NCBI GenBank assembly: GCA_963930775.1
Contig: OZ005692.1
Location: forward strand, 1,075,601-1,139,600
From: Cliona cf. orientalis
Lineage: Eukaryota > Porifera > Demospongiae > Clionaida > Clionaidae
Direction: 5' to 3'
DNA: 64,000 nucleotides
This document shows positions 5,823 to 39,432 of this stretch, piece after piece. Under the pieces are notes generated by a model. The model was not told the DNA's origin and searched no databases. It saw nothing but the letters and a program-made list of their open reading frames with translations. The translations under genes and the position numbers were made by a program. The stretch's first letter is position 1; every line of letters starts with the position of its first letter.

Positions 5823-5922
5823 GATGCACCTCTGTATTGTTGTACTTAAAGACAGCACATGCAGCTGCATACTGTAACATGCACAATGACAAAGAAAATT
5901 AAAGCAATCACATGATCTCACT

Positions 5923-6131
5923 ATAATAAGTATAAATCATTTTAGCCATTCATTGTCATAACAATGCAATATGAATAGCAGCCTAGCTTTGTTAATTTAG
6001 CCAATTATATACTGTCCCAGCGGCCATAGTGTACTGGTATGGTGTGTTATGATGTCGCAATTAAGTCACCTCCAGCTGTACAATTAGCACTGGCAACAGT
6101 TACTTTGAACTAATAGATTATGCCAGAACTC
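5923..6131. other. Intergenic/promoter DNA, no gene seen
   Basis: AT-rich DNA upstream of the kinase-Kelch gene. It should contain that gene's promoter, but I recognise no motif. Confidence 0.5.
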
Positions 6132-6637: not shown

Positions 6638-7245
6638 ATTGAGAGAGATTGGAGTATCATGGAAGTGGCATGATTTATAGGAAGTTTTATGGATATTCCA
6701 ATCCCGTCACCTTACTTAAACTCTATCTTACTATCATTAGACCAAATCTGGAATATGCTTCCTCAGTCTGGGATCCCTCGCAAAAACTACAGATTGATGC
6801 ACTAGAAAGCGTGCAGAAATTCGGTCTAAGGATGTGCCTCAAATCTTGGAATGAAAATTATGATGACCTCCTGATAAGATCAAAAATCCTTTCATTAAAG
6901 ACAAGACGAATGCGGATGAAACTTTGTCACTTGTTCAAAATCATTAAAAAGATGACGGAGTTTCCAGATGCTCCGATCGCTGCAAAGAGGACTCCATACC
7001 TGCACAGATCAATTAATAACAACTCTCTTACAATCCCATGGGCAAGGACTTCAGCATATCAGCATTCCTTCTTTCCTAATGCCCTAGGCCTATGGAATGG
7101 GTTACCAGAGGACATGACCAGTGTAAATAACTTAATGTCTTTTAAGAACTTACTACTATTGAAACTTTAATTTCTAATAGGTGCACTTAAGCTATTTTGC
7201 TATTTGTGTGTCTACTGTATGTATACTGTTATCATACAGAAAGTG
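6638..7245 (+). mobile_element. 5'-truncated LINE (non-LTR retrotransposon) 3' end
   Basis: Positions 6649-7170 encode the C-terminal region that follows the reverse transcriptase in CR1/jockey-like LINEs: LYLTIIRPNLEYASSVWDP, then LESVQKFGLRMCLKSW and the terminal SFFPNALGLWNGLP. No RT palm domain remains, so it is a 5'-truncated insertion, followed by a short untranslated tail. The boundaries come from a paralogous empty site at about 23128-23210, in which the bases flanking this block (ending CAGTATTGG, resuming GAAGTGAA) are joined directly. Confidence 0.8.
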
Positions 7246-7666: not shown

Positions 7667-10221
7667 ATGGAACGAGCACAGTGGGGTGGGGCATATCCTT
7701 ACGTCAACAACCTTCTGAGAAGACCAGAAGAGGATCAATATGGGGGGCGGGCCTCACGTCATGATCAACAACCTCGATCTAGACACGGACGTGATCCTAG
7801 GATGAAGGATCTGGTGGTAGAACTAAAGCCCGTGAATTGGCACGAGCTAGGTATACAATTGGAAGTTCCTCTTGACAGACTTGACAAAATAGATGAAGAT
7901 CATCAATCCTCTGAAAGGAAATTGAGTGAAGTGCTGCGGTATTGGCTACTCAACGACCGCAGCCCATCATGGGACAAGATCTGTGAGGCTCTGCAAAGGA
8001 TTGGAGGATTTGGTAGACTTGTACAAGAGCTAAGAATGAAATATTGCTCCCTTAAAACCTGTCGCGAGCAGCATCATACACAAGGTATTGAAAGCATGAT
8101 TGTGATTAACCCTCGGCGCATGCGCGAGGGTTACTGTAGTTGGTTTGTCTGTCTGTCTGTCTGTCTGTTACCACGCTAGCTGCTACATACCTCGTTTGCG
8201 AGTCCAATTTGCGGTATTGCAAGGTTCCTTATGGCGTTCCCAATTCATGATTTGTGTGGATTTCTCCGAAAACGCTTTGTTCGCCAGTTTTGGCGTCATT
8301 TGCCGATTCTAAGCTTCTTGACTTTGCCCGAGTTAGCGATAGCATGACTTAACGTATAAATAGGTTGCGCACTATATACGGTATATACGCCTCTAACCCT
8401 CAGCGCATGCGCGGTTGCATCAATCCCGCCCCTCACCAGCGAGCTAGCTTTTAACAACCGTGGCTTCTTCAAGTTCAATTCTAAGCGGCTTAGCTGCCTG
8501 TATTCTTGTGGTACCCTTTGACTCTCTGGCTTGTATGCATGCATGGAATTACAGTGCTTGAAACCAAGTGAGTTGCGATAATATTGGACATGCAATATTA
8601 GGCTCAGTGTAGCTACTTCAGTCTTGTGCCGAGGCTTTGCATGATAGTCCTTCTATATAGTTAAGATGTAGCTAGCTAAGTCCCCAAGAATTGGAGGTTA
8701 GGCTACAGTGAGGAAGGTTGACACCACAGTGTGGAGTTCGATACAGCACGCTAGGGTTGTTGCTGCTATGAGCTGTTGAACCGTCTTGAATAACACTGCT
8801 GTGCAAGTATAACCTGCTGTGCAAGCATAACATTAGCCTCATCCCTGTCTGGCCCTGGCCCCAGCCCTTTAGCTGCCCCCTTTTCTGCATGCAACTGTTG
8901 AAGCATGTAGCTTAAATGCCATGCAGCGCGCCGAGGGTTTTGTGCTCGAGAGAGCTCTAGTTGTTCTTTGCATTTATGTTTGTGCATATATTTCTTCCAA
9001 ATTATAGAGACTGAGATTGCAAGACCTGATAGTGGGACTGCACATGTATGTGAGGGGGTTGAGAGTACAGTATCATATGAAACAAAAGAAGTTATTGAAA
9101 GACTTCAGAGGGAGTTCAGAGAGCGAGTGTCTAGAATACGCTTATCATTAACTGCAACCATTTCGTTGACTGCCATCAAAGATTTGCTAAAAGAGCTACC
9201 TGCAGGAGAAGTGAAGAATCAAGTAGGCCACCTTCTAAGCAACAACTATAGCTTGATTATGAGCTCAGATGATATTGATCAGCTATTCGTACATCTTTCC
9301 AATATGCAAGCATGGGATTTCTTGCATCCACAGTTGCTCGAGTACTTGGTTCAAGAACTAGCTGACGATGAAATAAAGGAGATCATGACTGAGTACAAGT
9401 CTCTATTGATACAGTTTCGCAGTAAAACCAAAATGAGTGAACTTTCAGGGTGGTTTGGTGACATTTCTGAAACATCTACATTCAAAAAAATCGTGCTCTC
9501 TCTTGGCGATAATTGGAAAGATAAAACCTATGAGGAGTTTGAAGTCCTTAGAGTATCTCTTCTACACCAGCGTGTATTTTTCCAGTCATCACTACACCTT
9601 TGTGGAATATTGACTGACAGCATTTTAGTGGCACTTGCTATTCCCGATTCAATTTATGAAGAAACAATGGAGCAAATAAGGTCATCAGAAAATTCATTTT
9701 TGACCTTTCTTGTGGACAATAACATTTCTGCTGTCTTCGGTGAACGATTTTGTTTAATCCGAGATGCACGTAGCGAACTCCTGTTCCCTGGCCACCCTGC
9801 AGCTGGTCGACGTCACCGCCCTGGCAACCTTGTAGCTGGCATCCTTGGTCGCCTTAGTCGACGTGGCCACCCTGACAATCCTCCTGTCGTCAACCCTCCC
9901 ACCCCCGAGCTCGTGATCAACGTTCCCACCAATGAGGTTGAGGACGTCACTGCCAGCCTTCCTGTGATCATTGATGAACCTGACGTTGACACCACTGGCA
10001 GCCGTCCCGTGGTCATTGACGATCCTGACATTGACGCCACTAGCAGCCGTTCCGTGGTCATTGACGATCCTGACATTGACGCCACTAGCAGCCGTTCCGT
10101 GGTCATTGACGAAATCGAACCTGACCTTGACGCCACTAGTAGCCCTCCTGTGGTCATTGACGAACCTGACAATGAACCTGATGTATTTGCTGAACTTATA
10201 CCTTTAATATATCAACCCTGA
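7667..10221 (+). CDS. Death-domain protein, paralogue A
   Basis: Two exons, 7667-8084 and 9008-10221 (GT-AG, phase 1), give 543 residues. Residues about 46-128 are a death domain (MKDLVVELKPVNWHELG through LRYWLLND and SPSWDKICEALQ to LRMKYCSL). Exon 2 encodes a roughly 220-residue helical module shared by all three paralogues here, with LHPQLLEYLVQEL, LSGWFG, LSLGDNWKDKTYEEFE and FFQSSLHLCG. I know this module from uncharacterised sponge and cnidarian proteins but not under a named domain. The tail is Arg-rich, then carries four to five 15-residue acidic repeats (VVIDDPDIDATSS). Death domains assemble signalling complexes by homotypic contact, so an adaptor role is likely but inferred. Unlike B and C, the Cys/His cluster at the exon junction is mostly lost. 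Confidence 0.85.
8107..8425. mobile_element. Palindrome-(TGTC)n repeat element in intron of gene A
   Basis: A 27-bp palindrome (8107-8133, TAACCCTCG..CGAGGGTTA around GCGCATGCGC) is followed 13 bp later by a run of TGTC units (8146-8170). A degenerate second palindrome, CTAACCCTCAGCGCATGCGC, lies near 8395. The same design, reversed, is at 36578-36627. Right boundary uncertain. Confidence 0.6.
9992..10190 (+). repeat. 45-bp coding minisatellite in gene A
   Basis: Four to five tandem copies of a 45-bp unit encode SVVIDDPDIDATSSR-type repeats. Adjacent inner copies are nearly identical, pointing to recent copy-number change within the coding tail. Confidence 0.9.
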
Positions 10222-10310
10222 CTTTTTCCATACTACAGATAATTTTTGAGGTACAATATGCAATAGCCATAATAGTTACATCCTAAGTGGGAAAAAAAAT
10301 AAAATCAATC

Positions 10311-10335
10311 TAATGTAATGTAATGTAATGTAATA
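10311..10335. repeat. (TAATG)n microsatellite
   Basis: Five pentanucleotide units of TAATG about 90 bp after the stop codon of gene A. Confidence 0.9.
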
Positions 10336-10344
10336 TAATCATTA

Positions 10345-10860
10345 TACTAAGATTATAGTTGTCCGTGCGTCCGTGCGTCCGTCCGAGCGGGAGGTGACCG
10401 GAAGTGATTTGACCCGAGCTAAAAAGTTTTCTTTCTGGGCGTCACTGGACTTGGGACGATACAGCAGACAGCCAACTAACGGCGGCTGGCTATGGCCCAG
10501 CAGCCACTAAAGTGAGCTGCTTAAAAAAAACGGCAGGACAGTATTTAGACTGAACTGTACACTTACATATGGCGGCCTGGAGAATGCGAAAGAGTGACAT
10601 TCTGGAGTCGATGTTGCCCATAGGTGCTTTCCAGAGGGAGGCGATTCTATTCTAAACGTATTTTCTTGGGACCCCTTGTGAGCGAAGCTGCAAGACAAGT
10701 AACGAATGCTTTAGCTAGGTGATTGACAAAGTCACATGATTAGGCAGGATGTGCACATGCGCACAAATACGTAGGTAAAGGTCGTCGACCACACATGCAC
10801 AATAATAGCACAAGGATAAAGGAGTGAGCGAGCGAAGCGAGCTCACTCCTTGTATAATAT
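10345..10860. mobile_element. Repeat element with terminal hairpin, copy 1
   Basis: Starts near TTGTCCGTGCGTCCG and ends in a strong hairpin, GGAGTGAGC / GCTCACTCC (about 10820-10848). A diverged copy in the opposite orientation spans about 13683-15005: both share the hairpin end, GACCTTTACC, the ATTCTCCAGG block and the TCCGGTCACCTCCC block. No protein is encoded. A 3' hairpin recalls Helitrons, but neither end clearly fits that family, so I leave it unclassified. Confidence 0.7.
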
Positions 10861-11032
10861 AATATTATAAGTAAACTCAGCCCCAGAACATGCTACGAAG
10901 ATAATTCAAAGACCAGCAGATAGAGCATAAAAAACAAAAATTTACACGTTCCAGAATTTTCAATTTCACTTTCATTGTCGAGTTATAAGCGAAAATGTCC
11001 TTGTCAAAACACAAAAGCCACAACTACACTAC

Positions 11033-11115
11033 TGTCCAGATGGTCTAATGGTTAATCTCTGAGTCTGCCAGGCAGTGTGAAATGCGCGCCCCGGTTCGAA
11101 TCCCGCCACTGGCCA
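11033..11115 (+). mobile_element. tRNA-derived SINE head
   Basis: A pol III A box (TGGTCTAATGG, 11041) and B box (GGTTCGAATCCC, 11093-11104) lie at tRNA-like spacing, followed by a T-run. I could not fold a good acceptor or anticodon stem, so a SINE head or decayed tRNA is likelier than a working tRNA. Confidence 0.6.
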
Positions 11116-11528
11116 GAGCCGATTTTTTTTTTCCAACTCTTTTTAACTGCCAATGATGCTGGGAAAGGTTGTCTTTCATGTATATTGGATAATAAAAGAT
11201 TAAATACTAGTATGTATACTGATGTATCATCATCAATACACAGTTTAGGCCATATTGGCCAATGACAATGATATTTACCATAGCTAAATACTCGAGTGAA
11301 GCAAAGTTAGGTAAAGATCGTCATTGGCTGCTTCATGCTCTAGATATTAATGCTCACTATTAAAGCACCACATGATTTGGTAGCAAGTGCTGTATCTTGC
11401 GGCATTATCAATCTTTGTGGTGCAAGCTGACTGACTGATTGTCGTCCTTTTGGTGGTGGCTGGTTGTTAATTTAAAAGTGTTTCAAGTTGTGATCTACTA
11501 TCATTCGGTCAGTGAGTTGTTGAATACT

Positions 11529-11849
11529 ATGCCTCGTGGTAAAAAAAGTACAATTATTGTTCTCTACACTGAATTACGTATGCTTTTAATAAACAGTGTA
11601 CATCTTGTGGATTTATGTTTGGTAAAAAAGATGGTCAGCCAAGTAGCTAATACTAAGGCCTCTGATGGCTATTCTGTGGGCACCAGTGGTGGTAGGCCCA
11701 GTGGTACCAAAGCCTCTGATGGATATTCTGTCAGTATTAGTGGTGGTAGGCCCAGTGGTACCAAAGCATCTGATGGCTATTCTGTTGGAGGTAGGCCCAG
11801 TGGTACCAAAGCCTCTGATGGATATTCCGTCAGCACTAGTGGTGGGTAG
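11529..11849 (+). CDS. Short GRP-repeat protein (transposon-like remnant)
   Basis: MPRGKKSTIIVLY starts a 106-residue reading frame whose second half is repeats of GGRPSGTKASDGYSV. Such GRP-x-GT repeats, with an AT-hook-like GRP core, recur in many sponge and cnidarian repetitive proteins. The DNA is a minisatellite (11658-11880) with unit AGGCCCAGTGGTACCAAAGC plus a variable spacer. The frame stops after a change in repeat phase, and one more unit continues past the stop. I do not know a function and treat it as a fragment of a repetitive gene. Confidence 0.4.
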   Translation: MPRGKKSTIIVLYTELRMLLINSVHLVDLCLVKKMVSQVANTKASDGYSVGTSGGRPSGTKASDGYSVSISGGRPSGTKASDGYSVGGRPSGTKASDGYSVSTSGG

Positions 11850-12029
11850 GCCCAGTGGTACCAAAGCATCTGATGGCTATTAATATAATAATCATAACAT
11901 CTAAACTTGTTAAATTCAGTTTGTTTCTCCTAATGCAGATGTTTTTCTAGCTAAATGAACACACTTTTTTCCACTTAGGATGCGGTCAGTCTTCTTGTAA
12001 TAATAATAATATTATTATTATTTTGCATG

Positions 12030-12925
12030 ATTACACTCAACCTTTATTCTTCTGGTATAGAATAGTATGTATGTATTTTTGTCGACTACTTTCTCATCCT
12101 TAACTTGGTATACATTTTCGTCATCATAATACAGCTACAGCCATCCTATAATAATAGATATGTGTGTAGAATAATGGTGCAGAATGTCATATTATTACAG
12201 CAGAAAGGTTTTGCACAAGTTATACACAGGCATGATAAAAAGGTATATACTAGCATCAAAACTTTTAAACTCCATGCACCCACAACTGAAGAGCAAATCA
12301 AGGGAACAGAATGGCAAGGTGCCTTAACTGACATAACACTGTAATACTGATATCACTCCTCGTACAGTGGAATCTAGCTGTGTATAGTGGTCACTGTATA
12401 AGGCAGCCACCTTCTCACTACAGCCACTAAGATTAAGCTCTAAGTGGCAAAGCTCCATACATTACACATCTCTTTAACTTTAAAGCACTGTGTTTGCAGC
12501 CTTGGCCATGTTGGTAAAATGACCAATGTAGCTGTTGCCATAGTGATAGACAACGGCATGAAGGTCATAGAGGGGCAGGGTCTCGGCTGATATCTGATTG
12601 GCCACGTCTCCAAGCAACAACATAATTATTATGCCCAAAATAATGATTAATTTCTTTGTGCACGTAACATGACATTGTGTAAATTCATCAATAGTTATTG
12701 TAAATAATATAATTATTTCATTTGATCTTGTATAGTACATTCTTAAGTTGCCTCCTGTTGGAAACTTCGAGCTGCTCAATTTCAACTTGACCCGGTGTCG
12801 GCAGCTGAGATCAAAGATCAAGGCAGTAGCTAATAGCCACTCCAACGACCTCACCCTGGAGGAGTGTTTGGAGAGATTCACTGAGCCATGGCCAGAATCA
12901 CTCACACAGGAAGATGCTTTAAAAG
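12030..12925 (-). pseudogene. Scrambled copy of USP19 3' exons
   Basis: Three blocks match the intact USP19 gene at 25.8-33.2 kb. 12030-12145 (minus) copies the last exon ([19 protein letters not shown]) with an in-frame TAG from a duplicated CTGTAG. 12480-12615 (minus) copies the His-box exon ([20 protein letters not shown]) and diverges after NMAKA. 12741-12925 is inverted (plus) and joins part of exon 9 (LPPVGNFELLN) directly to exon 15 ([16 protein letters not shown]) without exons 10-14. Gene A lies upstream just as gene C lies beside the real USP19, so the block is debris of a segmental duplication. Confidence 0.85.
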
Positions 12926-13108
12926 CTACATGTAGGTTGTTGCAAGTGTACCCACGGGTGTTTGAGCCCAATACATATACGCATGCGGAAACTTAGTCGC
13001 CTACGCATACCGGTAATTTTTCCTACACGTAGCAACCAGGATGCACTTTCCTGTGGATAAGCACGTATTTTTTAACGATATTCACAACATACCAGTGCGA
13101 AGTGCAAA

Positions 13109-16100
13109 ATGGGTGGTGTGCTTCGTTCGCTGTGGCATCGTCCAAATTTCGTAGAGAATGATCCTCTTCGTATAAGAGATGATCTAGATTTACGACAGCC
13201 ACCCGTCCTCGCACCCGTCAGAGGCCGCGGCACTACCCGCAGGCCATCTGCATACGTAACCTCGTCACTGGGTGATTCAGGACGCCGCCATTCCGTGCTC
13301 CCTACCAGGCCTTCCTATCGATATCAGCCTCTGATCGCGAGGCCACGATTATTGGATCTGACGAATGAACTGAAAATGGTAAATTGGCACAGACTAGGGA
13401 CGCAATTGGAAGTCCCTCCTGACAGACTTGATAAAATAGAGGAGGATCATCCAACATCTGAAAGACGATTATATGAAGTACTGTGGTATTGGTTAAATGA
13501 CGAAACAGATCCTTCTTGGGATAAAATTTGTGAAGCTTTATGTAGGATGGGTGGATTTACCAGAATTGTCCGGGAACTAAAAGTAAAGTACTGCTCATTG
13601 AGAGCATGTGAATTCAGCTATTCTGTAAACATAACTTGTGCTCACTGTGATCAACACCATTGTAAGTTTATTAATACATAAATACAAAGAGTGAGCTCGC
13701 TCACTCCTTTATCTCTGTGCCGCATGATATTATTGTGCATGTGCCGTCGACGACCTTTACCTATATATTTGTGCGCATGATCAACCTAGCGCACGTGCAC
13801 ATCCTGCCTGATCATGTGATTTTGTCAATCAGCTAGCTAAATTACTGCAAATGATAATCGCGAATATTTTGTTGTTAAACGGACGTGCTAAACTAAATGC
13901 GCAAAAATACATACGCTATTGTGGTACAGGGTCGTTTGTCCGAAAATTATTTAACACAAAAAATTATTGCACGAAATATTTTAGACACGAAATATTCACG
14001 ATCAAGTTAGTTGTCCTGCAGCTTCAGAGAAGACGCTTAGAATAGAATCGCTTCCTTCTGGAAAGTACCTATGGGCAACATTGACTCCAGAGTGTCACTC
14101 CTTTGCATTCTCCAGGCAGCCATTGTAAGTGGTAGCGTAACGTGCCAATTATCAACATACGGTTTTCTCCCGTGTGTGCCGTTGCTTAGGAACATCGCCT
14201 GAACTTCGAATTCAAACTTGGACCAAAAGGTAGGGCGTCGCCAGGGCTACAAGTACCTAAAGTCTCATGGAGCTACCAATAAAAATACCTCTGCAACTTG
14301 TGGCAATTTTAGCTTATAATAATTGCGAATGCCAGTTATCAACAGTCGGTACATATTATTGGCACACTGTATACTTTCAATACAATCAATTATCGTCACT
14401 TGGAGCTTTGTCATCACAGTGCATGCAATCCAAGAGTAAGAAAATTATACAAAAATACTAGCAGGTGCATAATCATAAGCTCTAACTACTGAGGCAACTT
14501 CATGTTCATAGGTGAGCTTGTTCGATCTTTATCGTTTTTTCCAACTTGGCAGAAGCGCCTCCAGCGGGAACGGCACCATCGCATCTTTGCCCCTGTATTA
14601 AGAAAGTAAGATACTGTAAGGGTCGATCATCTTATCACAAATGGAGCAAAACATACCTTCAAAAGTCCAGCCTGAAGCAGAGAAGCGAGTCGCGATCGAC
14701 CATGCAAAGTTATTATTAAACGTGCCACGCCCACTGCCTATACTAAGGCCCTATGTCAATAATCGATACCCGTATTTCCGATAGTAGGTACCTGTCGGTA
14801 ATTGGTACATTACGCTACAGTCTGCCCTGGCGTTTTTTTGAAGCGGCTCACTTTAGTCGGTGCTGGGGCCATACCCAGCCGTGTCAGTGGGCTATTGATT
14901 GTATTGCCCCAAGTCCAGCGATGCCTAGAAATAAAACGTTTTAGCTCGGGTCGAATCGCTTCCGGTCACCTCCCACTCGTACACACACACGGACAACTAT
15001 AATCCTAGTATAATGATGATATTAAGCACTGTATTTAATATACATGCAGGAATATTAATTTTATCATTGTTTGGAGGGAAACCCATATTAATTTAAACTA
15101 AAATGTGGCTCCAAGCGCTTAATAATATTATCATAGAGTCGGTAGACTCTATAAGTAGGATGGCCCAGATATGCCATATATGTAATACATTACAAATACC
15201 CAAATATCTCAAAATAGGTAATTTTGTGAAATTTCTAAGTGTGAAAATCAGAATCTCCAGCAAATTGTGCATCTAGCAAGACCAAGATTATTCATCAAAA
15301 CAATTGTATATGCCAGAACCAGATATTTGAAAAATAGCCCATTTCTCATTCTTTCTTTCTTCTTTCTTTCTTTCTTTTTCATTATCAGGGCTAACTCAAG
15401 ACTGTCTGGACCGCTCGCCTTAGTTCTCGTATAAATCCACTCTATTTTGTAGCGCGCAGGTCCATGGCACGTTTGTTTGGCGTTATCTCGACAGCTATAC
15501 GAAATGAATCCCGTTATGTACCGAGAAACCCGCGCGTCAAGATGACGTTCTATTGATCACGTGTGGCGCGCGCCTCCCTCACTTAGAAAATTTCCAGAGT
15601 ATAAGGGAAAAAAAAAAGAAATTGAATGAATAGAGCGAGGATCGAACTGGGGTACATGAATCCGTACACCAGAGCCCTAACCACTGCACCACCGTGAACG
15701 CCGCTGCCAGGTGCTCTTTTGTCACGACTTTAAAGACAATGGTAGTACTAACCCTTGTGTGTCAAACCCTACCCTAAACCAAAAACCCTACCTACCCTTA
15801 GCCGTTCATATAATACTATGCAATTTAGCCCAGCCCCCTATGGGGGCTGGGCCGTGCGCCTATGGCGCGCGGGTTTCTCGGTACATAACGGAATTCATAC
15901 GAAATGGTGGCGGCGCATTAACTAGTGGGTGTGTCTGATACGCCATTTTGTCATACAATGCGCATGCTCGGAATATGTTGCCATGGTGAAATCATGTGAC
16001 TACGGTCAGGGGCGTGGCGCGCGCAATGCAGCATGAAGCGCTCAGACACTCGCGGCGCTCAGTTCTAGCTTCGAGCTAGGCGCCAGGCTCTCCTGTCTCC

Positions 16101-18266
16101 CGCGCGAGCTAGCTATAGCGTAGTTAACTAGGCCAGTGCAAGCTGAGCGCTATGCAGTGAACTAGGTATCAAGACTCTCGGCCTCAGCAGTCAGCATATT
16201 AAACAAGCCAGTTCACAACTTGAAGAGACACACCGCTACCTGGGCAGCCTTCTTTGTCAGCCACCTTGAAGGGAGTGGCCGCTAAGACTTTTCGCGCACG
16301 CGCGAACTTCGGTACCTCCCATCTACTAGCTACTTAGAGTTGAATGAGCAAGCCATTTAAGATGGCATTGATAAATTATGCTAAGAGCAATAAAAAAGAA
16401 CAGAAACAAGTATAAAAAACAATAAAATTGAAGGATGAAGTAGGGATGGCAGGATCAAAAAGTACACAAACAAGATTTGTAAGGCATAAGTAGCGATATC
16501 CAACCTCCAAATTTCACTGCTTTTTCCGCGGATTATCTTTTAGTGGAATATCAATGTTTGAGTATCAGAAGGTAGCTCTCCACGAGCTCTATCCAACGGT
16601 ACTTGTAACGTGTCCGTAGATAAAACCGTTGCGTAGCCACGCCCACCTAAACTTTCCTCATAGAAACTTAATACAAACAAAAATGAAGCTAGCAGCGGTT
16701 CCGCGGAACCGATTTGCACGGTTAAGGCGTCGGTAGATAGCTCATTCAGTGAGCTATCCAGCGCATTTTTTCTCGTGAGCGTACTCCTAACCGGAGCTGA
16801 GATATTTTCGATTTACTGGAGGCCCTTGGAGGTTGGATATCACTAGCATAAGCATCTGCTATACATCCCTGCGCTTGCTTTTTGAGGGGTGCAGAAATTA
16901 AATCAAAACTGACTATCCTGAACCATTGTGGCAACCAGAGAACAACCTGAATGTCTCCCACATGCCACACTTGACAAATACATCAACATTAATAGCTAGG
17001 TGCATAATAATCGAGAAAAGCAAGTGAAGGGATGTATAGCAGATGCTTATGCCTTACAAATCTTGTTTGTGTACTTTTTGATCCTGCCATCCCTACTTCA
17101 TCCTTCAATTTTATTGTTTTTTATACTTGTTATACTACTATCAGCATTGTGCGGATTTGAGTTCATAATCATGCGCTGCTTTCCTGAAGGTAGATAGCGA
17201 GGGTTCTATTATTATCGGTATGTGCCCAGGATAGTGACAATAAAATTAATTATCATGGTATAGCTAGCTATGGCAATGTCATTATATTATTATTATAGAC
17301 TAAGTATTTTTCTTCTTCACAGTATGTTGGCGTGCTTATACTGATAATCATGCAGAGTACGCCAGTCTACATTGTGATGTCAATTGTAACATTCTAAAGA
17401 TAATCAAAGAACTTCAGAAAGATTTTAGAGAACGAGTTAGTCACATCCGCTTGTCATTTAGAACTATTAAGGTGGAAGCGATTAAGGATTTATTGTTGCA
17501 AGAACTTCCTGCAGGAGAGGTGAAAAGTCAAGTGGGACTACTCTTAAGTAAAAATTTCAGGACAATTATGAGTTCATATAGCGTCGATCATCTATTCATA
17601 AATTTGTCAAATATACAAGCTTGGGATTTTTTACATCCACAGTTACTGGAGTACTTGGTTCAGGAACTCGGCAATGATGATGCAAAGAGGAGTATGGAAA
17701 GATACATATCTTGTTTAATACAATTTCGCAGAACAACAAAAATGCAGCAGCTTTCGGGATGGTATGGTAGGATAACTGAGCCATCTGAATTCCAGAAGAT
17801 TGTATTGTCTCTTGGAAGTGATTGGGAGGAAAAAACGTACGAGGAGTTTGAAGAACTAAGAGTATCATTATTACGCAAAAAAGCATTTTTTCAGTCATCG
17901 CTACACCTTAGTGGAGTATTAACTGGCAGCCTTTTGGTGGCATTAGTAATTCCCAAGTCAGTTGACATAGCAGTAATGAGGCAAATGCTAGGTGAGCGTC
18001 AGCTATTGAATTTTCTCATGGACAATGGCATTTACAGTATCTTTGCTGAACAACTATGTTTAATTCAAGATGTATCAAAAGCTCTTCTCTATCATACTTA
18101 CTCCACTGATCCCGACTCTGAAATATTTCAAACACAAGCTATGACTACGTATACATATACACCCTCGAGGCCGCCGCTTCCGCTTTTCGGCGAGAATACA
18201 TCATCATCTGAGGAAAACATAGACTCTGAGCGTTCTTCCGCTTGCAGTGCACAATATTTCCCGTAA
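13109..18266 (+). CDS. Death-domain protein, paralogue B
   Basis: Exons 13109-13661 and 17323-18266 (donor GTAAGT, acceptor TTCACAG) give 498 residues from MGGVLRSLW. A basic N-terminal leader is longer than in A or C. Death domain about 81-163 (LLDLTNELKMVNWHRLG to LKVKYCSL). The exon junction creates a Cys/His cluster, CAHCDQHHLC plus LHCDVNC. Exon 2 carries the shared module (QAWDFLHPQLLEYLVQEL, LSGWYGRI, LSLGSDWEEKTYEEFEELR). The tail is short and Ser/Glu-rich (SSSEENIDSERSS). The 3.66-kb intron is filled with inverted-repeat elements, while gene C keeps an 83-bp intron at the same site. Both exons are open and the splice sites intact, so the gene looks functional despite the repeat load. 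Confidence 0.85.
13683..15005. mobile_element. Repeat element with terminal hairpin, copy 2 (inverted)
   Basis: Opposite-orientation relative of 10345-10860, starting with GAGTGAGCTCGCTCACTCC just after the exon 1 donor of gene B and ending near the TCCGTGTGTGTGTACGAG-side block. It is longer than copy 1 because of extra DNA around 13850-14040 and 14140-14820, which may be further insertions. Confidence 0.65.
15501..15905. mobile_element. Inverted-repeat element carrying a tRNA-like segment
   Basis: A perfect 25-bp inverted repeat (15511-15535, CCGTTATGTACCGAGAAACC plus five bases; partner 15867-15891) bounds the element. On the minus strand at about 15633-15702 it holds a pol III A box (GGTGCAGTGGTTAGGGC) and B box (GTTCGATCC), so a tRNA-derived piece is captured inside. 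No coding capacity. DNA from 15006 to 15500 shows only a small palindrome (ATAGAGTC/GACTCTAT) and a TTTC run near 15360. Confidence 0.75.
16406..17130. repeat. Large fold-back with perfect 85-bp arms
   Basis: Arms 16406-16490 and 17046-17130 are exact reverse complements over 85 bp. A middle block (about 16820-16880) pairs partly with both arms (TTGGAGGTTGGATATC, GCATCTGCTATACATCCC). Perfect identity implies a recent origin. It lies in the intron of gene B and encodes nothing. The DNA at 15906-16400 is GC-rich, palindrome-prone repeat sequence. Confidence 0.85.
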
Positions 18267-18274
18267 CTCACGTT

Positions 18275-19379
18275 TAGGCCACACCAAACGAGATTTTAGT
18301 TTGAAATTCCCGTCCACGCATAATTGCACAAAGGATGCGGGCAGGCAGTCACGTATTCGTATTATGTGTTACTATGATTCTCATTAAAATTCTTATGAAT
18401 CTCATTAATTTTGATATTCCATGAATTCATTGACCTTATTGACCTTACCGAATTGAAGAAGCTTGCCGAACTTTGTCTATCATCATCGGACTTCAGGATT
18501 GTCCAATGCAACAATCAGTATCATAATAATAATATAGTAGTATTGTACACTAACATTAGTCAGTACTAAGCATTGTTTTTGTTGATAAAATAATGCAATA
18601 ATATACCGTAAACTCTGGTTATTAAGCGCACCTCGCTATTAAGCGCATGCCCTCTTCTTGTCATAAGCTATTGTTTATTAAGCGCATGCGCTTAATAGGC
18701 GTGGCGTTCTATTAACCTGACCTTGACCGGCTGGAAAGTATTTGGAGTCCAGCTATCTTTGGAGAAATGATGGCCACGAATAACGTTATCATGCAAGAAG
18801 ATCGACAAATCGCCAGCACTCGTCATCTTGAGCTAGCGCGAGCGGGCCTCGCATCCATCACGTGCCCAAACGTTTGTGGGCGTGGTTATGTGCCATATAA
18901 GCGCATATCCTTTATTAAGCGCATACCGTCATTCCGTTTACCGCTATAAGCGCATGCGCTTATTAAGCAGAGTCTACGGTATACTTATTGCCATAGTAGA
19001 ACGGCAATACAGAATGCAAAAGGCAATGAACGAGTGGTATTTCCGAGGTATCGTCGTTCTGGTATGGCAATAAGGTATTTATCGTACATTTTAATAAGAA
19101 GCCTAATTCTGTTTAGTATAATATTATAGCTCGAGCAGCAAAGCTAAGAAGGGACTGCTTTAGGTTTTGGAGATGGTGCGGCTATCATTTCAGGCACCGA
19201 AGACTAAGTAAGGTAATAAAAATGACTGATATAGCAGCAATTCACTTTCTCCTCTGTGCGAGTGAATGGCGCTCAACGTTCAACCATTGTTCAACGTTTC
19301 AACACAGTAAGAGGGTCGGCTACGCCAAACTAGGGCGGGCGGTGGACGGGAAACTAAAGTCTCATTTGGTGTGGCCTTA
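18275..19379. mobile_element. TIR element beside gene B, interrupted by a MITE
   Basis: Ends TAGGCCACACCAAACGAGA (18275) and TCTCATTTGGTGTGGCCTTA (to 19379) are inverted repeats of about 28-40 bp with a few mismatches. The element begins 8 bp after the stop codon of gene B. A younger MITE (18604-18981) lies inside it. No open coding region. Confidence 0.75.
18604..18981. mobile_element. 378-bp MITE with TACCGTA ends
   Basis: TACCGTAAACTCTGGTTATT at the left and its near reverse complement at the right, ending GAGTCTACGGTA. TTAAGCGCA-type subterminal motifs repeat on both strands inside (AAGCGCATGCGCTTA). Confidence 0.85.
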
Positions 19380-19418
19380 CTTATTTACACTTGTCCTACT
19401 AATCAGTTATTTATATAT

Positions 19419-19558
19419 AAGTTAGACACTGAAGCCAAGGGATCTACAGGATTTAGAATACTGAAGACACTGATATAAAATCCTGAAGGCGAAGCCTGAG
19501 GTGTCTGAAGTATTCTAAAGATTGTAGATCCCATTGGCTGAACTTGAGTGTCTAACTT
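19419..19558. repeat. 140-bp fold-back
   Basis: AAGTTAGACACT at 19419 and its complement ending 19558, with further pairing inward (GGGATCTACA/TGTAGATCCC, TTTAGAATACT/AGTATTCTAAA), form one long imperfect hairpin. Confidence 0.8.
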
Positions 19559-19964
19559 ATTCAGTTAGACTCTAGCATGCTATAGGGTACTCAGTTTTTA
19601 TGTATATAGTTACACTGTATTCTATGATTGTATCTGACTGCTCTGCATGATTAACTAATGTTCCAGAAAGTGCAAATTAAGTTGTTTACAATTAGGAATT
19701 TGGAATATTCAGATGAGATTTCCTCATGCTACAAACCCAAATCCAAACCCAAGGAGGCATGAAATTGAGACAACCACATAATCATGGTCAAAATAACGAT
19801 TAATTTCTTACGGTGGGCCATGGTTACAGAATCTTGCAGCTAGCTAGCTACTGAAATTAGATTATAACCGTAGTCCTTGCACCCAGACTATAGGCCTAGC
19901 CTTCAATATTGCTGTATCGATGCCTTGCGGTATATAGCTACCTATTCTTGTTTCCTGGTGTCCT

Positions 19965-20195
19965 TGGTGCCTCCAGTGCCCTTGGTGCCTCTGGTGTCGT
20001 TGCATGGTGCCCTTGGTGCCTCTACTAAAATCAAGGGCACAAGAGGCACCAACAATGCCAGAGGCACCAATGATAGCTACCAGGGGCCGCACCAATTAAC
20101 GGCGCCAAAAGCACCAAGGGCACCAACGGCAACGACACTAGGGGTACCAACAACACCAGAGGCACCAAGGGCACCAGCGGCATCAGAGGCACTGT
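19965..20195. repeat. Mirror-arranged GGTGCC/GGCACC minisatellite
   Basis: Degenerate units of CCTTGGTGCCTCT fill the left third. From about 20033 the units switch to the complementary AGGCACCAA form, so the array can fold on itself around TACTAAAATCAAG. Confidence 0.8.
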
Positions 20196-20224
20196 AGTAC
20201 ATTGTAGCTATAATATAATATTAA

Positions 20225-22887
20225 GGTACCATTTAATTGCGTGGGCGTGAGCGTCAGGAATGGCTAATTCAATTAGCGAATCGTGAAGGGGCGTGGCCGA
20301 AGAGGCCATACGAGTGCTTTTGGTCGAAGGTGGGCGTGTCCAGAATCGGCCAGGGATGATTATGCGCGTGTAATTAGCGACCGGAAGTGGCCCCTGAAGA
20401 AAAGGCCGGTAATTGCCCACATCAAAGCAAGATCAAAGCATTCTTGCTTAACTATTAACCGCAACGACAAAAAAATTATACACTAAGTAGAAATTACACA
20501 CTAAGTAGAAAAAAAAAAAATATGAAAATTCATGGGGGGTTTGGGAGCACTTGGGGAGATAATTTTTACATGGGCACGCAGAATGGGTCGAAACTAGAGA
20601 TTTGACCCTGGGGAATTTTGATTCATGTCTTAGAATTAAAGTTACGGCCCTTTAAAGTTTACCCATATGTTTGTACAGCGAAGCCATGTGTTTGCAATGT
20701 TTTGAGTCCCGGTGTGCGTTATTTAGAAAATCGCTAGTCCAGTACATGCATAGGCTACCATGGAGCTGGTATTGTATCCAGAGACTTGCTGAATGGATGA
20801 GGAAGCAGTCACAGCAGTAACTCTCCCGTTTTTGCTGAGAGGTAGGTGGGGTAATACAGCTATAGTTTTACATTTTGTATGTGTGGATCAGTGTATGGGA
20901 AAATACATCTAATTGAGCTCTAGAAACATAACTAACTAAAATTGTTTTGTGCTTTTCCCCTAGCCTTGTGTGTGTGCTGTGGTGATCTTGAGTACTAGTA
21001 CAAAGTAACGTGTTACAGTGGCCACAGGTACTGAACCTCTTCCCCTAGCCTTGTGTGTGTGCTGTGGTGATCTTGAGTACTAGTAGGAAGTAACGTATTG
21101 CAGCGGTCACTGGTACTGAACCTCTCAACACTGATCATATACTTCTAGGCTTTATTAGGAGCATAGACGGCCTTGTTTCCGATTGTATGGGTATCCAGCT
21201 CAACTATGTGGTGGTTTCTGGACAATTTTTTTACAGTAATACTCGGGATGACTATAATAATATTACTATACTGTAGCGTGTGAATATTATATACATGCAT
21301 GTTTCTAATTATGTGGAACTTTTTGTGCTTAGTGTGCATGGTAGGTCCTTAGATGATTTCCTTAGATGATTTCCAGCAAGCTCAAATCACCTGAGGTACT
21401 TGGTATTGTTACTATGGTATACCAATGCTAAATCGTACAGGCACTGTACATTGATTAAATTATTGTGGGCTAGGGTAGCTGTTTTGAACATGACTTGACT
21501 ATCTCCAGGATGCTCTACTCTGCTGAAGAATGGTTTTAGTGACATTAGATGTTGTTACCATAGTAATATATACCAAATGTACATAAAGTATTGCAGTGTA
21601 TGTATGTGCATGGTAAACAATCAATGTAAAGTAAGCCTAAGTGCATATTAATTTGTGCGAACCTATACAATGCAGGTATGTATACTTATGTGCCGCAGTT
21701 TTTTTTTTCTGCTTAGTGTGCACGGTAGCTTGAAAAAAAGCAAATTTAAATAAATAATCTAATTCAGGGGGGGTTTGGGAGTACTTGGGGGGACAATTTT
21801 TACATGGGCACGCAGAATGGATCGAAACTAGAGATTTGACCGGACAGATTTTTGATTCACACCTTACAATTAAAGTTACGACCCTTTGAAGTTTTCCCAT
21901 ATGTTTGTATAGGAAGCCATGCATTTGCAATGTTTTCCGCCCACGCGCTACGTGAGGGGCGGGGCCACGCGGGCACATCAACGTGACGACCATTACCCAC
22001 TTTGGTCAAAATTGATGTACAGGCTGCCTGCGTGCATTGTATGGCTCTACTATGCATCCGGCTCAACTATGTGGTGGTTTTTGGACAATTTTTTTTTCTG
22101 CTTAGTGTTCTGGTCGCCTTGAAAAAAAAAAAAAAAAAAAAAAAAGCTAATTAGGCCTAATTAAGCCTGTGGGCGTGTTCCTGGCACTGTGTGGAGTGTG
22201 TGCGTGTGCGTTAATGCAGGTTTTATTGCTTCCGATTGGGCGTGGCTTCACGGGCCAGTGCTTGGACATCGGGGCCGGGGACTTGGCTGCGGCGATAGGT
22301 GGGCGTGTCCCGGATGCGGTGGTGACCTTTGAACCCGTCCAGGAGGCTTTGGGGGCGTGGCAGGAGGTCAAAGGTGAGGCCATGTCTGTTAATGAGGCAC
22401 TGTACGGCGGTGCGATCGAGGGGCCTGTAGGGCTGGACGGAAGCTGACGATGGTTTGAAGCGGATGTGGTTGCGATGACGTGTTGTTACTCCGCCCACAC
22501 AGGAAATGAGGTGAGCTCTTGCGTGGGCGGTGTGGCAGAACGGCCTCCAAGTGTTTGTGTGTGTTTTGGCCTTGAGGAAGCTGTGTGTTTTAATTGGGAT
22601 TGATTGTGGGCTTCCGGTGGACATCCGGTGGTTAGTAGGCACTTGATTGAGAATGGTGGTCCTTGGGGAACAGGGTGGGGCTGTTTTGGGCGTGGCCTGG
22701 CCCCTCCCTTCCGGCTCGGCTTCCGGTCCATGGAGGATATTAAATGAACACTTCCGGCTCTAGCAGCCACACCCCTGAGACCTGTGCAATTAAAAGGGCG
22801 TGGTTACACAACATGCACCTCACTAATGACTTTGATGTGGTTTTGGTGTCATATCCCCACCTCACGCCCACGCAATTTAATGGTACC
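20225..22887. mobile_element. 2.66-kb DNA element with TTAA target site
   Basis: Left end GGTACCATTTAATTGCG and right end CGCAATTTAATGGTACC belong to 27-bp terminal inverted repeats with one mismatch. TTAA flanks both sides (20221-20224, 22888-22891). TTAA duplication is typical of piggyBac and Kolobok elements. No transposase reading frame is visible, so it is non-autonomous. Inside are a 170-bp direct repeat (20534-20705 and 21769-21935), a tandem 80-bp duplication (about 20961-21125), repeated CTCAACTATGTGGTGGTTT blocks (21199, 22061), an A-run (22123-22145) and a GC-rich right part. Confidence 0.85.
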
Positions 22888-23127
22888 TTAAAACATGTAT
22901 ATACGGTACTATTATAATACAGTGCGTAAATGCTGACTTTGCATATTTCGTGACTCTTATATGAAATACCGTATTTCTTCTAAAAATTCGGCATGAAAAT
23001 AATAAGCTTTGCCGAATTTTTAGAGGTTAATATTCAACGTTCTGTCTGCGTGTGCATTCTATTCCCGTTTATAGCATATATGCGTGACGACCTTTGCCGA
23101 AAATTAGAGACTATTTTCAATCATTAA

Positions 23128-23400
23128 TACAGTAATGCTTGTCGTCCAGCGCTTGATTTCATCAGTATTGGAAGTGAATAAGATCTATCATTATTAATGC
23201 ACTCCTAGGAGGCGGTCGTCAGTCGCTCCACATGTGAATATTCCGGCTCGTTCCCAGACCCACCCTGGAAGTATGTATCTAGAGTGGCAGTGAATTTCTA
23301 CAATGGAAACATGGTTGAAGGAAGTGCCCCTTACAAGCCACCATAGTTTCTTCACGGTCAGTTTACACGAGCTCATCTCCTAGTAAGCGTACAATTCTCA
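23128..23400 (-). pseudogene. Duplicated transporter start and vWA-kinase exon 1
   Basis: Two fragments of other genes in this window lie next to each other. 23128-23190 (minus) repeats the transporter exon start (NTDEIKRWTTSITV) found at 6.6 kb, and 23191-23280 repeats its flank. 23340-23376 (minus) repeats the start of the vWA/alpha-kinase gene (MSSCKLTVKKL versus MSSWRLTVKKL), and its promoter side (CAATTCTCAGTCAGCTAGCA) continues to about 23456 and again after an inserted MITE to 23705. Neither fragment is complete. Confidence 0.75.
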
Positions 23401-23456
23401 GTCAGCTAGCAATCTAGTAGTATATTAAATCTACTGCACGGCAGTGGAGTGGTTTA

Positions 23457-23656
23457 TACCGTAAATCTGGAAATTTTCGTTGTAAAAATATTTTCGTAGT
23501 CGATGGCGGCTACGAAAATTAATCTTACGAAAATTAGCATGCACTATTAACGCTAATGCGTTAATTAAGCCTAAGGGTCGTTCCTACGAAAACGTTTTTA
23601 CACGAAAATTTATCATACGAAAGTTTCTTTACACGAAAATTTCCAGATCTACGGTA
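23457..23656. mobile_element. 200-bp MITE with TACCGTA ends
   Basis: TACCGTAAATCTGGAAATTT at the left and AAATTTCCAGATCTACGGTA at the right. The insertion splits the duplicated vWA-kinase promoter; the original at 3.1 kb has no insert. Internal CGAAAATT motifs repeat in both orientations. Confidence 0.9.
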
Positions 23657-23754
23657 CTTGAAATTGCTATTTCGGACCTACGAGGGGCTAGAAGTTACTT
23701 GTGCGCATGCGTAAAATCGTAGAGCTACACTCCCTGGATTTCCCCTCCCTCATG

Positions 23755-24095
23755 CAGGGGCGTAGCTTAGTTGTTTCTTTGTTGCCCGGAAACCCCCCCT
23801 GGCAATCAGATTTAGTATTATCTTAGTATGATTTGGCTATCAGGAAGGATCAGGAAACCCCCTTGGTTTCCAGATTCAATATGCAGACACTAAAATCTCC
23901 TGAAACTTAGCCTAGATCTCTTCCTTTTGTGCTTTTCTCTGCCAAAATCTCGAGAATCTAGCAAACTCTTGCTGAAAATGGCGATCGTTAATTAGAGGGC
24001 GTGGCCGAAAAGTGGGCGTGGTCATTAAATTTTTCGCGCACGCTTCGCGCGCAATTGCTTGGAAACCCCCTCAGAAAATCCTGGCTACGCCCCTG
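23755..24095. mobile_element. hAT-like MITE just upstream of gene C
   Basis: CAGGGGCGTAGC and GCTACGCCCCTG form the ends, the CAGGGGC form common to hAT-type elements. TCATG flanks both sides. Its right end is 49 bp from the start codon of gene C, so it must form part of that gene's promoter or 5' leader. Confidence 0.75.
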
Positions 24096-24144
24096 TCATG
24101 TGATGCATGCATGGGCGCGGGATTGACCTTTGAGTCAAAGGCAG

Positions 24145-25718
24145 ATGGGAGGTGTATTTCGTTCGCTGTGGCGTGGTCCTACAAATCGAGTCTCGCTACC
24201 ACGTCCACCAGATCTTGGGCACATTCCCGACCTACGACGTCGACGCCACCGTTCCAGTGTACCTATCCGTTGCGATATTGGGTGTCAATATCTGCCCACT
24301 CCACAATTATGTGATCTAGTGTATGAACTGGAAATGGTAGATTGGCACCAACTAGGGGTGCAGTTAGAAATCCCTCCTCACAGACTTGACAAAATAGAGG
24401 AGGATTATCGAACATCTGAAAGACGATTATGTAAAGTACTAGAGTATTGGTTAACTAATGAAATGAATCCTTCATGGGATAAAATTTGTGAGGCTTTACG
24501 TAGGATGGGTGGATTTGTCAGAATTGTCCGTGAACTAAAATTAAAGTACTGCTCACTGAGTGCAAGTGAATTCCGCCGTACTGTAACTTCTATAACTTGT
24601 GCTCGCTGTAATCAGCACCATTGTAAGTTTATAAATTAAAGCATAGTATTAATGTACTGTATTATTATGTCATTGTTCACTATATATTACTTTTCTTGTT
24701 CACAGTATGCAGGAGTGCTTATACTGATAATCATATCAGTTTACATTGTGATGTCGATTGTAACATTCTAGAAACAATCGAAGAACTTCAGAGGGATTTT
24801 AGACAGCGAGTTACTCACATCCGCTTATCATTTAGAGCTGTTTCACTGGCAGAGATTAAGGAATTATTATTGCAAGAACTTCCTGCAGGAGAGGTGAAAG
24901 GTCAAGCTGGAGTACTTTTAAGCAACAATTTCACGGCCATCGAGAGTTCACATAACAGCGATCGTCTATTCACATATTTATCCAATATACAAGCTTGGGA
25001 TTTTTTACATCCACAGTTACTGGAGTACCTGGTTCAGGAACTCGGCAATGATGATGCAAAGAGGAGTATGGAAGGGTACAAATCTGGTTTAGTACGATTT
25101 CGCAGAACAACAAAAATGCGGCAGCTTTCGGGATGGTTTGGTAGGATAACCGAGTCGTCTACATTTCAAAAGATAGTGTTATCACTTGGAAGTGATTGGA
25201 AGGAAAAAACGTACGAGGAGTTTGAAGAACTAAGAGTATCATTACTACGCCAGGAAGTATTTTTTCAGTCATCACTACACCTTTGTGGAGTATTAACTGG
25301 CAGCCTTTTCGTGGCACTAGTTATTCCCAAGTCAGGTGATGTAGCAGCAATGATGAAAATGCTAGGTGAGCATCAACTATTGAAGTTTCTCATGGACAGT
25401 GACATTTCTAGTATTTATGCTGAGCAAGTATGTTTAATCCGAGATGTACCAACAGCTTTAAGCACTGGCCCTGAACCACGTGCACCCCAAGAACTGGATA
25501 GTGGAGGTAAAGGTAGAGTGCCCAAGTTACAAATAATAGAGATAGATGAACCACGGGTACCGCGACCACCACGACCACGGATGCGTGCTATACCCATACC
25601 CGAATTCGATGCTTCTGTGGTAGATCATGGTGTACCTTCTACATTTCAACCACCTGGCAAAAGCTCAAGTACAACTGTAAAGCATCTTCCCATTGAACCT
25701 CCTGAACATTATTTATAA
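24145..25718 (+). CDS. Death-domain protein, paralogue C
   Basis: Exons 24145-24622 and 24706-25718 (83-bp intron) give 496 residues. I chose MGGVFRSLW at 24145 over an ATG five codons upstream because it aligns with the start of paralogue B. Death domain about 57-138 (LCDLVYELEMVDWHQLG, EYWLTNEMNPSWDKICEAL). The junction forms CARCNQHHLC..HCDVDC, a possible small zinc site. The shared module spans most of exon 2 (LHPQLLEYLVQEL, LSGWFGRITE, LSLGSDWKEKTYEEFEELR). The tail is Pro/Arg-rich (VPRPPRPRMRAIPIPEF), unlike A and B. It ends 44 bp from the USP19 stop, tail-to-tail. Likely a death-domain adaptor; partners unknown. Confidence 0.87.
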
Positions 25719-38639: not shown

Positions 38640-39430
38640 TGATTAAATTTAATATCTCTGTTAATATTATATAGCTATGATAATAATTATGTATATTAAT
38701 TATGATAGGACTTGAAAATTAATGCACAATCTTTAATACTGATTCTGAATCAATGCTAAGATCATGATGATGACTATAAACATTTTAACCATCTTAGATG
38801 ATGAGAGAACTACCGGTATGCAATATTATAATAGAGAGAGAAGGGGCCCGGGGGTGGTAGAAAGAGAGATAAATTAATTAAGGTAACCAAGTTATCCCTT
38901 AATTAATATTGCCAAGCTCCTCCTGGCTGCAGGTATCTTATTATGTCAATGCATAGTGTACTATTATTATGGAAATTTTCTCATGAATAATTATTGTGCA
39001 CGCATTGTACTAAAATCGGTTGTCAGCCCAATATGCATAATTATGGTTGGTTTTGTCATGAAAGGTGACAGTTACATCATTGTGAGAATATAGTTTTGAA
39101 ACTGAAACCTGTTTGCCTTGCATTTGTGTGTGGTAGTCGATAAGATTGTGGGAATTAGCACACTGGATGCATGCATGCATGGACGTCACTAATATTATTA
39201 TCAGCTCGGGGAATTAAAAAACATTGAGTACTTTACTCTATTGATCGAACTTGATAGTTCCCCAACTTTCAGAATGATGATATCTAAACAATAACATATG
39301 GCGACAGTTGTAGCCAAAATTCAATATTAAGTCAGTGTCCACAAACCCTATATATTTCCAGACTGTCACAGTGATATTCTCAGTTTACTGGTATTTGTAG
39401 CTATTTGCTATCACACCTTCAAGTTCAAGA
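38640..39430. other. Intergenic DNA, no gene seen
   Basis: AT-rich DNA with a short GA run near 38835 and a TGCATGCATGCATG run near 39168. It should hold the promoter of the next gene. Confidence 0.5.
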
Positions 39431-39432
39431 AA

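Follow-up and report, generated by a model that had tools for sequence, protein, structure and literature searches.

The vertebrate adaptor TRADD carries a TRADD-N domain (Pfam PF09034, structure 1F3V, cited in PMC8195603) followed by a death domain; in DEDD2 and other dyad proteins, a DED directly precedes TRADD-N (PMC8195603). According to the sections of that study used here, the superfamily is defined by the uS motif, a tiny residue followed by Ser, sometimes Cys, in the beta2-beta3 turn of TRADD-N, and Kaur et al. 2021 proposed an interaction of TRADD-N with the domains on either side of it and a switch operated through the conserved Ser (PMC8195603). The same sections report NCOA6-clade TRADD-N expansions in sponges and other marine invertebrates and give STAND NTPases among the TRADD-N partners for an oyster. 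Furthermore, NLRX genes have been suggested to represent the ancestral NLR core, with DEATH and CARD as a later addition, in a study whose main text makes no mention of TRADD (PMC12909245). We analyzed a window of 64,000 nucleotides from the sponge Cliona cf. orientalis (C4:1075601-1139600 of a 216.8-Mb, 149-contig genome; strand and positions are numbered within the window, C4, C5, C10, and C14 are contig labels, and L0xx are locus labels of the same genome). It holds three plus-strand genes, A, B, and C, which we read, with a probability of about 0.8, as encoding cytoplasmic cell-death or innate-immune adaptors of the death-domain/TRADD-N kind, judging from predicted proteins and a structure model.

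Comparison with described systems

Sponges and other marine animals are already known to have large immune-type families of this kind, and the trio forms one small, local branch of such a family. Like TRADD, its members combine a death domain and TRADD-N in one adaptor; unlike TRADD, they place the death domain first, with an extra death-fold-like bundle between the two. TRADD proper was rejected as an identity because the death domain lies on exon 1 and the module that includes TRADD-N on exon 2. With DEDD2 and the DED-TRADD-N dyad proteins (as presented in the consulted part of PMC8195603), the trio shares a DED-type bundle directly before TRADD-N, but it adds an N-terminal death domain on its own exon and has no significant DED score. 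The likeness to the NCOA6-clade expansions consists of a large genome-wide expansion, which implies no clade placement, and of kinase and ankyrin among the C-terminal partners, seen here in relatives of the trio. In contrast, the trio's tails lack a recognized domain, and some relatives in this genome carry the module ahead of NACHT, an arrangement not given for Amphimedon in the same part of PMC8195603. NLRX genes, compared by description from part of PMC12909245, resemble L047 and the C14 pieces described below, in which NACHT is present (in L047 also leucine-rich repeats, LRR) and Pfam, at the thresholds applied, recognizes no N-terminal domain; they differ in that A, B, and C lack NACHT and that the N terminus of the NACHT relatives is the trio's module.

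Gene layout and death domain

The common exon structure of the original prediction was borne out by matching phase-1 splice pairs, all predicted and frame-keeping (A 8084/9008, B 13661/17323, C 24622/24706). In each gene, exon 1 with the death domain is followed by a phase-1 intron and by exon 2, which encodes a module of about 230 residues, a tail, and the stop. Gene A comprises exon 1 at 7667..8084, an intron at 8085..9007 (GT..AG, with phase and corresponding position as in B and C), and exon 2 at 9008..10221; the respective parts lie at 13109..13661, 13662..17322, and 17323..18266 in B and at 24145..24622, 24623..24705, and 24706..25718 in C, exon 2 being delimited by open frame, splice site, and translation. 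The predicted introns measure 923, 3661, and 83 bases, and the predicted spliced products 543, 498, and 496 residues, for A, B, and C, respectively. A scan of window open frames of at least 25 residues (E <= 1), using module and death domain profiles that both include the A, B, and C rows, recovered the module three times and a death domain of the trio type three times.

The expected N-terminal death domain exceeds the Pfam Death (PF00531) cut-off of 22.6 bits in B (32.4 bits, match 13355-13552) and C (32.3 bits, 24304-24510) and falls half a bit short in A (22.1 bits, E 1.6e-4, 7802-8005), which scores 87.2 bits against an own-genome profile that has A among its rows. At 62-74% identity within the trio, the domain is conserved to the same degree as the module. 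In the C10 cluster, the death domain and the module are joined in single-frame proteins of about 400 residues (Pfam Death 39.5-48.4 bits in the four members scanned), which makes the link between the two independent of splice prediction.

Identity of the module

The module had been regarded as unnamed, a view that no longer holds: its C-terminal half belongs, by transitive sequence homology, to Pfam TRADD-like_N. This half spans 9466..9765 in A (alignment A4), 17772..18074 in B (by alignment), and 25146..25448 in C (by profile match, structure model, and uS motif), all on the plus strand. Pfam found nothing relevant in the window module exons and no direct PF20694 or TRADD match among the members of A2 (0/29), an alignment of 29 modules out of 30 references computed, L038 being left out as a truncated sequence. 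Weak TRADD-like_N matches appeared at the expected strand-helix-strand in three of 10 relatives scanned (L043, E 4e-4; L050, 0.017; L048, 0.02). Of 47 genome matches to PF20694 (TRADD-like_N) at E <= 10, 24 exceeded the cut-off; 1 of 14 control genomes had a match, and none had one over the cut-off. Eight of the 47 places, three of these over the cut-off, coincide with module matches obtained from the window protein, and 39 do not.

The connection is carried by four of the 24 over-cut-off places, L059-L062, two chosen for module overlap and two from the remainder, which reach 26.1-32.9 bits with Pfam TRADD-like_N (cut-off 23.7). Against a database of these four, the A2 profile gave E values of 5e-24 to 7e-16, every match running from the helical half into TRADD-N, including those to L061 and L062, which belong to the 39 places outside the module matches; none of 1000 shuffles was matched at E <= 0.01. 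At the uS turn position, Ser occurs in 27 and Cys in 2 of the 29 A2 rows, and Ser in 25, Cys in 4, and Gly in 1 of the 30 rows of A3, a chosen set. A tiny residue does not invariably precede the turn position (A2: N 13, G 10, S 3, A 2, D 1); within the trio, GS is found in B and C and DS in A. The structure model of the module shows two domains that match two separate known fold classes, and the strand-helix-strand-strand-helix-strand order of an RRM-like fold was found in the C-terminal half. A solved TRADD-N structure was not among the 50 matches listed in a structural alignment over 998 chains. PDB sequence searches with the window protein, A2, A3, and A6 (the helical half, 16 of the 29 rows) returned no convincing match, the best biological one being the MDA5 CARD (E 0.03 with A2, 0.08 with A6, 0.32 with A3).

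The N-terminal half is helical (9079..9459 in A and 17385..17768 in B, from alignment A5; 24759..25142 in C, a helical bundle in the structure model; all plus strand) and looks like a DED-type death fold, for which the modeled structure is suggestive. The structural alignment ranked a DED first, aligned along 85 of its 87 residues (22% identity), and also listed a CARD. Pfam gave no DED match in the module exons of A, B, and C; 4 of the 29 A2 members matched DED at all (best E 0.0019), and members of the C10 cluster scored 15.4-18.4 bits within the module. A DED search of the genome found 94 places, and of the 11 near module clusters that were compared, 7 overlap module matches.

Conservation, selection, and tails

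The C module recovered B at E 9.9e-118 and A at E 2.1e-84 in a genome search, far beyond chance, and is 77% identical to that of B and 59-63% to that of A. A shared module had been expected at a slightly smaller size, about 220 residues, with conserved LSGWFG and KTYEEFEELR; the motifs are real, but B has LSGWYG and A has KTYEEFEVLR. As anticipated, the module is better kept than the tails, which are 10-28% identical; the N termini and the linker in A are also poorly conserved. Ratios of nonsynonymous to synonymous substitution (dN/dS; Nei-Gojobori with bootstrap limits) over the constant region were 0.51 (0.38-0.68) for B-C, 0.28 (0.19-0.40) for A-B, and 0.30 (0.21-0.39) for A-C. For A against B or C, the helical half gave 0.16-0.18, the TRADD-N half 0.38-0.48, and the death domain 0.13-0.14, rough figures since synonymous divergence (dS) is near saturation in most regions of these comparisons (proportion of synonymous differences, pS, 0.6-0.7). 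Between B and C they were higher and less certain (death domain 0.75, 0.36-1.69; helical half 0.60; TRADD-N half 0.31). Judged from these values by region, the module is under purifying selection, as had been proposed, though no more than the death domain.

In the linker between death domain and module, dN/dS was 0.88 (0.28-4.34) for B versus C and 1.6 for A versus B or C, the latter from a questionable alignment of 28-29 codons with 17-21% identity. The linker of B and C is Cys/His-rich across the intron (13610-13661 plus 17323-17390; 24570-24622 plus 24706-24765), with the pattern CxxCxxxHHxC ... HCxxxC, and is possibly metal-binding, going by this pattern. Gene A lacks such a linker, and L043 and L049 have another CGCG-type stretch ahead of the module. 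Four-fold-site identity of A with B or C peaks locally at residues 328-386 of gene C, which may reflect gene conversion but involves few sites.

Exon 2 of B and C is 85.6% identical over 779 bp, and the match (blastn, E <= 1e-4, as for all DNA comparisons here) ends at 18083/25457, nine bases beyond the module end. The homology of A ends at 9766/18072 with B and at 9769/25449 with C. All three pairs therefore lose DNA homology within about ten bases of one point behind TRADD-N, and the tail-coding stretches (A 9766..10221, B 18075..18266, C 25449..25718) show no mutual match. Thus, the tails would have been replaced or newly recruited at one boundary, not merely have drifted, since homology ends at a common point beyond which nothing matches. 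The trio presents one constant head with completely different tails. The N termini of B and C differ too, because their exon 1 match, apart from the first 35 bases, begins at 13343/24301. Short blocks common to the flanks of the trio resemble dispersed repeats. The tail of A consists of 151 open codons with five in-frame 45-bp repeats (9943..10175, plus strand; Tandem Repeats Finder and translation) encoding VVID(D/E)-like motifs, and the tail of C contains IIEIDE (25520-25560, plus strand); we take both to resemble SUMO-interacting motifs. Among the papers listed in a literature search, none combined sponge, SUMO-interacting motif, and death domain by its title.

Alternative explanations

Two observations weigh against reading A, B, and C as adaptors with a DED-like bundle and coding tails: no module member seen reached the PF01335 (DED) cut-off of 35.9 bits, and weak donor-like sites stand at the tail boundary in B (GAT/GTATCA, 18072) and C (GAT/GTACCA, 25446). 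The low DED scores would be expected if TRADD-N were correctly assigned and the helical half were an alpha-helical adaptor unrelated to the death fold, and chance alone gives helical bundles middling Z scores. Set against this are the DED at the top of the aligned chains, with a CARD also listed, the weak DED matches inside the module in the C10 cluster, and the DED-TRADD-N pairing that is common in the literature; we consider an unrelated bundle unlikely, though a serious competitor. Far less credence is due to a module that is one new lineage-specific fold without relatives. Such an orphan domain would suit the window modules, with no relevant Pfam match and no convincing PDB sequence match, but not the end-to-end homology to TRADD-like_N proteins, the uS motif, or a two-domain model fitting two known fold classes, and we rejected it on the TRADD-N homology of the C-terminal half. 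The named domain, moreover, has a role related to the one originally proposed.

The donor-like sites raise a different matter, namely that the tails are non-coding: transcripts would leave the exon close to where the module ends, and the open frames beyond would be intron read-through; DNA homology does stop at that very boundary. However, A reads GAT/GC there, its next GT (9770) lying a few bases on and in another phase, while the sites of B and C bear little resemblance to the GTAAGT with which the first intron opens in these two genes. The five repeats that keep the frame of the A tail also speak for coding sequence, and read-through appears rather improbable to us. It is hardly conceivable that the trio consists of decaying pseudogenes: the B-C ratios in the death domain and the linker would allow it, whereas open frames and frame-keeping splice sites persist in all three genes and the constant-region dN/dS (0.28-0.51) led us to reject decay, pseudogene-like values in all copies being absent. 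An adaptor role of the trio is likely on the predicted proteins, and the immune or cell-death function originally suggested is the best reading of their death domain and TRADD-N content.

A genome-wide family with NACHT genes

The genome search with the C module gave at least 143 matches at E <= 10 and at least 84, including A, B, and C, at E <= 1e-3; the matches listed are the best of longer candidate sets (module 150 of 173, death domain 150 of 1292, NACHT 103 of 490 candidates scored). Among those listed at E <= 1e-3, 45 lie on C14 and 20 on C10. Among the 51 modules of a maximum-likelihood tree, those of A, B, and C are set apart by a long branch and group exclusively with one another (100/100); L013 and L015, the nearest rows, join at 95/79. 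Consequently, the idea of an expanding lineage-specific set is sustained locally and fails overall, the family being genome-wide. Among relatives, death domain and module share a single frame (C10) or occupy separate exons, as in the window, and the module is also fused to a protein kinase (L048), ankyrin repeats (L057), and NACHT and LRR (L047). Within 8 kb of the 143 module matches listed, a listed death domain lies upstream on the same strand in 34 cases, downstream in 12, and on the opposite strand in 1. Another count found a death domain upstream of 18 of 22 modules, a figure biased upward as the 20 regions were partly picked for a known nearby death domain.

Open frames of 900 residues or more contain 36 of the 143 listed module matches (35 of them on C14), and 11 of the 36 have a listed NACHT downstream. 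Conversely, a same-strand module lies upstream, within 8 kb, of 19 of the 104 listed NACHT matches, every one of these on C14, compared with none for the opposite strand, and 2 of the 104 have a listed death domain upstream. The C14 array (about 4.8-5.9 Mb and 7.5-7.9 Mb; L017, L026, L029, L031, L033, L034, L036, and L037) is made up of long genes in a single frame, each bearing at least one module copy. At E <= 0.01, Pfam found NACHT in six of these eight pieces, L017 and L029 ending without any match, and a named N-terminal domain in none of the eight. Inspection by eye (L017 and L029) and partial profile matches (L033, L034, and L037) indicated further module copies ahead of NACHT; in L047 (C5), the module stands ahead of NACHT-LRR. 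No NACHT was detected by Pfam in the six window exons at E <= 1, and NLR membership of A, B, and C was rejected for this reason.

Because Pfam alone misses the module, module-NACHT genes would count as having no N-terminal domain, and it is suggested that NACHT genes counted as lacking an N-terminal signaling domain can carry a divergent death-fold-like/TRADD-N dyad. A dyad ahead of NACHT would bear on the argument for NLRX as the ancestral core, as set out in the consulted part of PMC12909245. Among the papers listed in literature searches, no title or abstract opening joined TRADD-N or TRADD with NACHT, NLR, or LRR in sponges. We tentatively propose, as a possibility below even odds, that the dyad is an overlooked N-terminal signaling part of sponge-type NLRX receptors and that death domain-dyad proteins such as A, B, and C are adaptors coupling these receptors to death-domain effectors through dyad-dyad contact, their tails being exchanged as a unit at a fixed boundary behind TRADD-N.

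Proposed mode of action

In the adaptor reading, the death domain and the DED-like bundle would draw the protein into death-fold assemblies. By way of its conserved Ser/Cys turn, the TRADD-N sheet could act as a bridge that holds or releases the flanking parts, following the model in the consulted sections of PMC8195603, and the tail would dock a partner. Gene duplication followed by tail replacement may then have rewired one signaling head to different partners. With a name for a formerly anonymous module, these genes can be annotated and tested.

Other features of the window

On the minus strand, 3387-5936 encodes a single-frame protein kinase-kelch gene of 849 residues (Pfam Pkinase 137 bits, and Kelch), whose kinase resembles by eye the one fused to the module in L048. 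An open frame at 6643-7170 (plus) resembles by eye the end of a non-long terminal repeat (non-LTR) reverse transcriptase, and Pfam gave nothing there at E <= 0.01. The 1247-residue open frame at 39331-43071 (plus) has a weak Chlam_PMP repeat match (25.4 bits, cut-off 20.6), and its product is perhaps, as a guess, a large extracellular protein of beta-helix type. An alpha-kinase fragment (22.2 bits, cut-off 21.3) lies at the window edge (2-511, minus), and an open frame at 30402-31565 (minus) matches ubiquitin carboxyl-terminal hydrolase (UCH, 118 bits).

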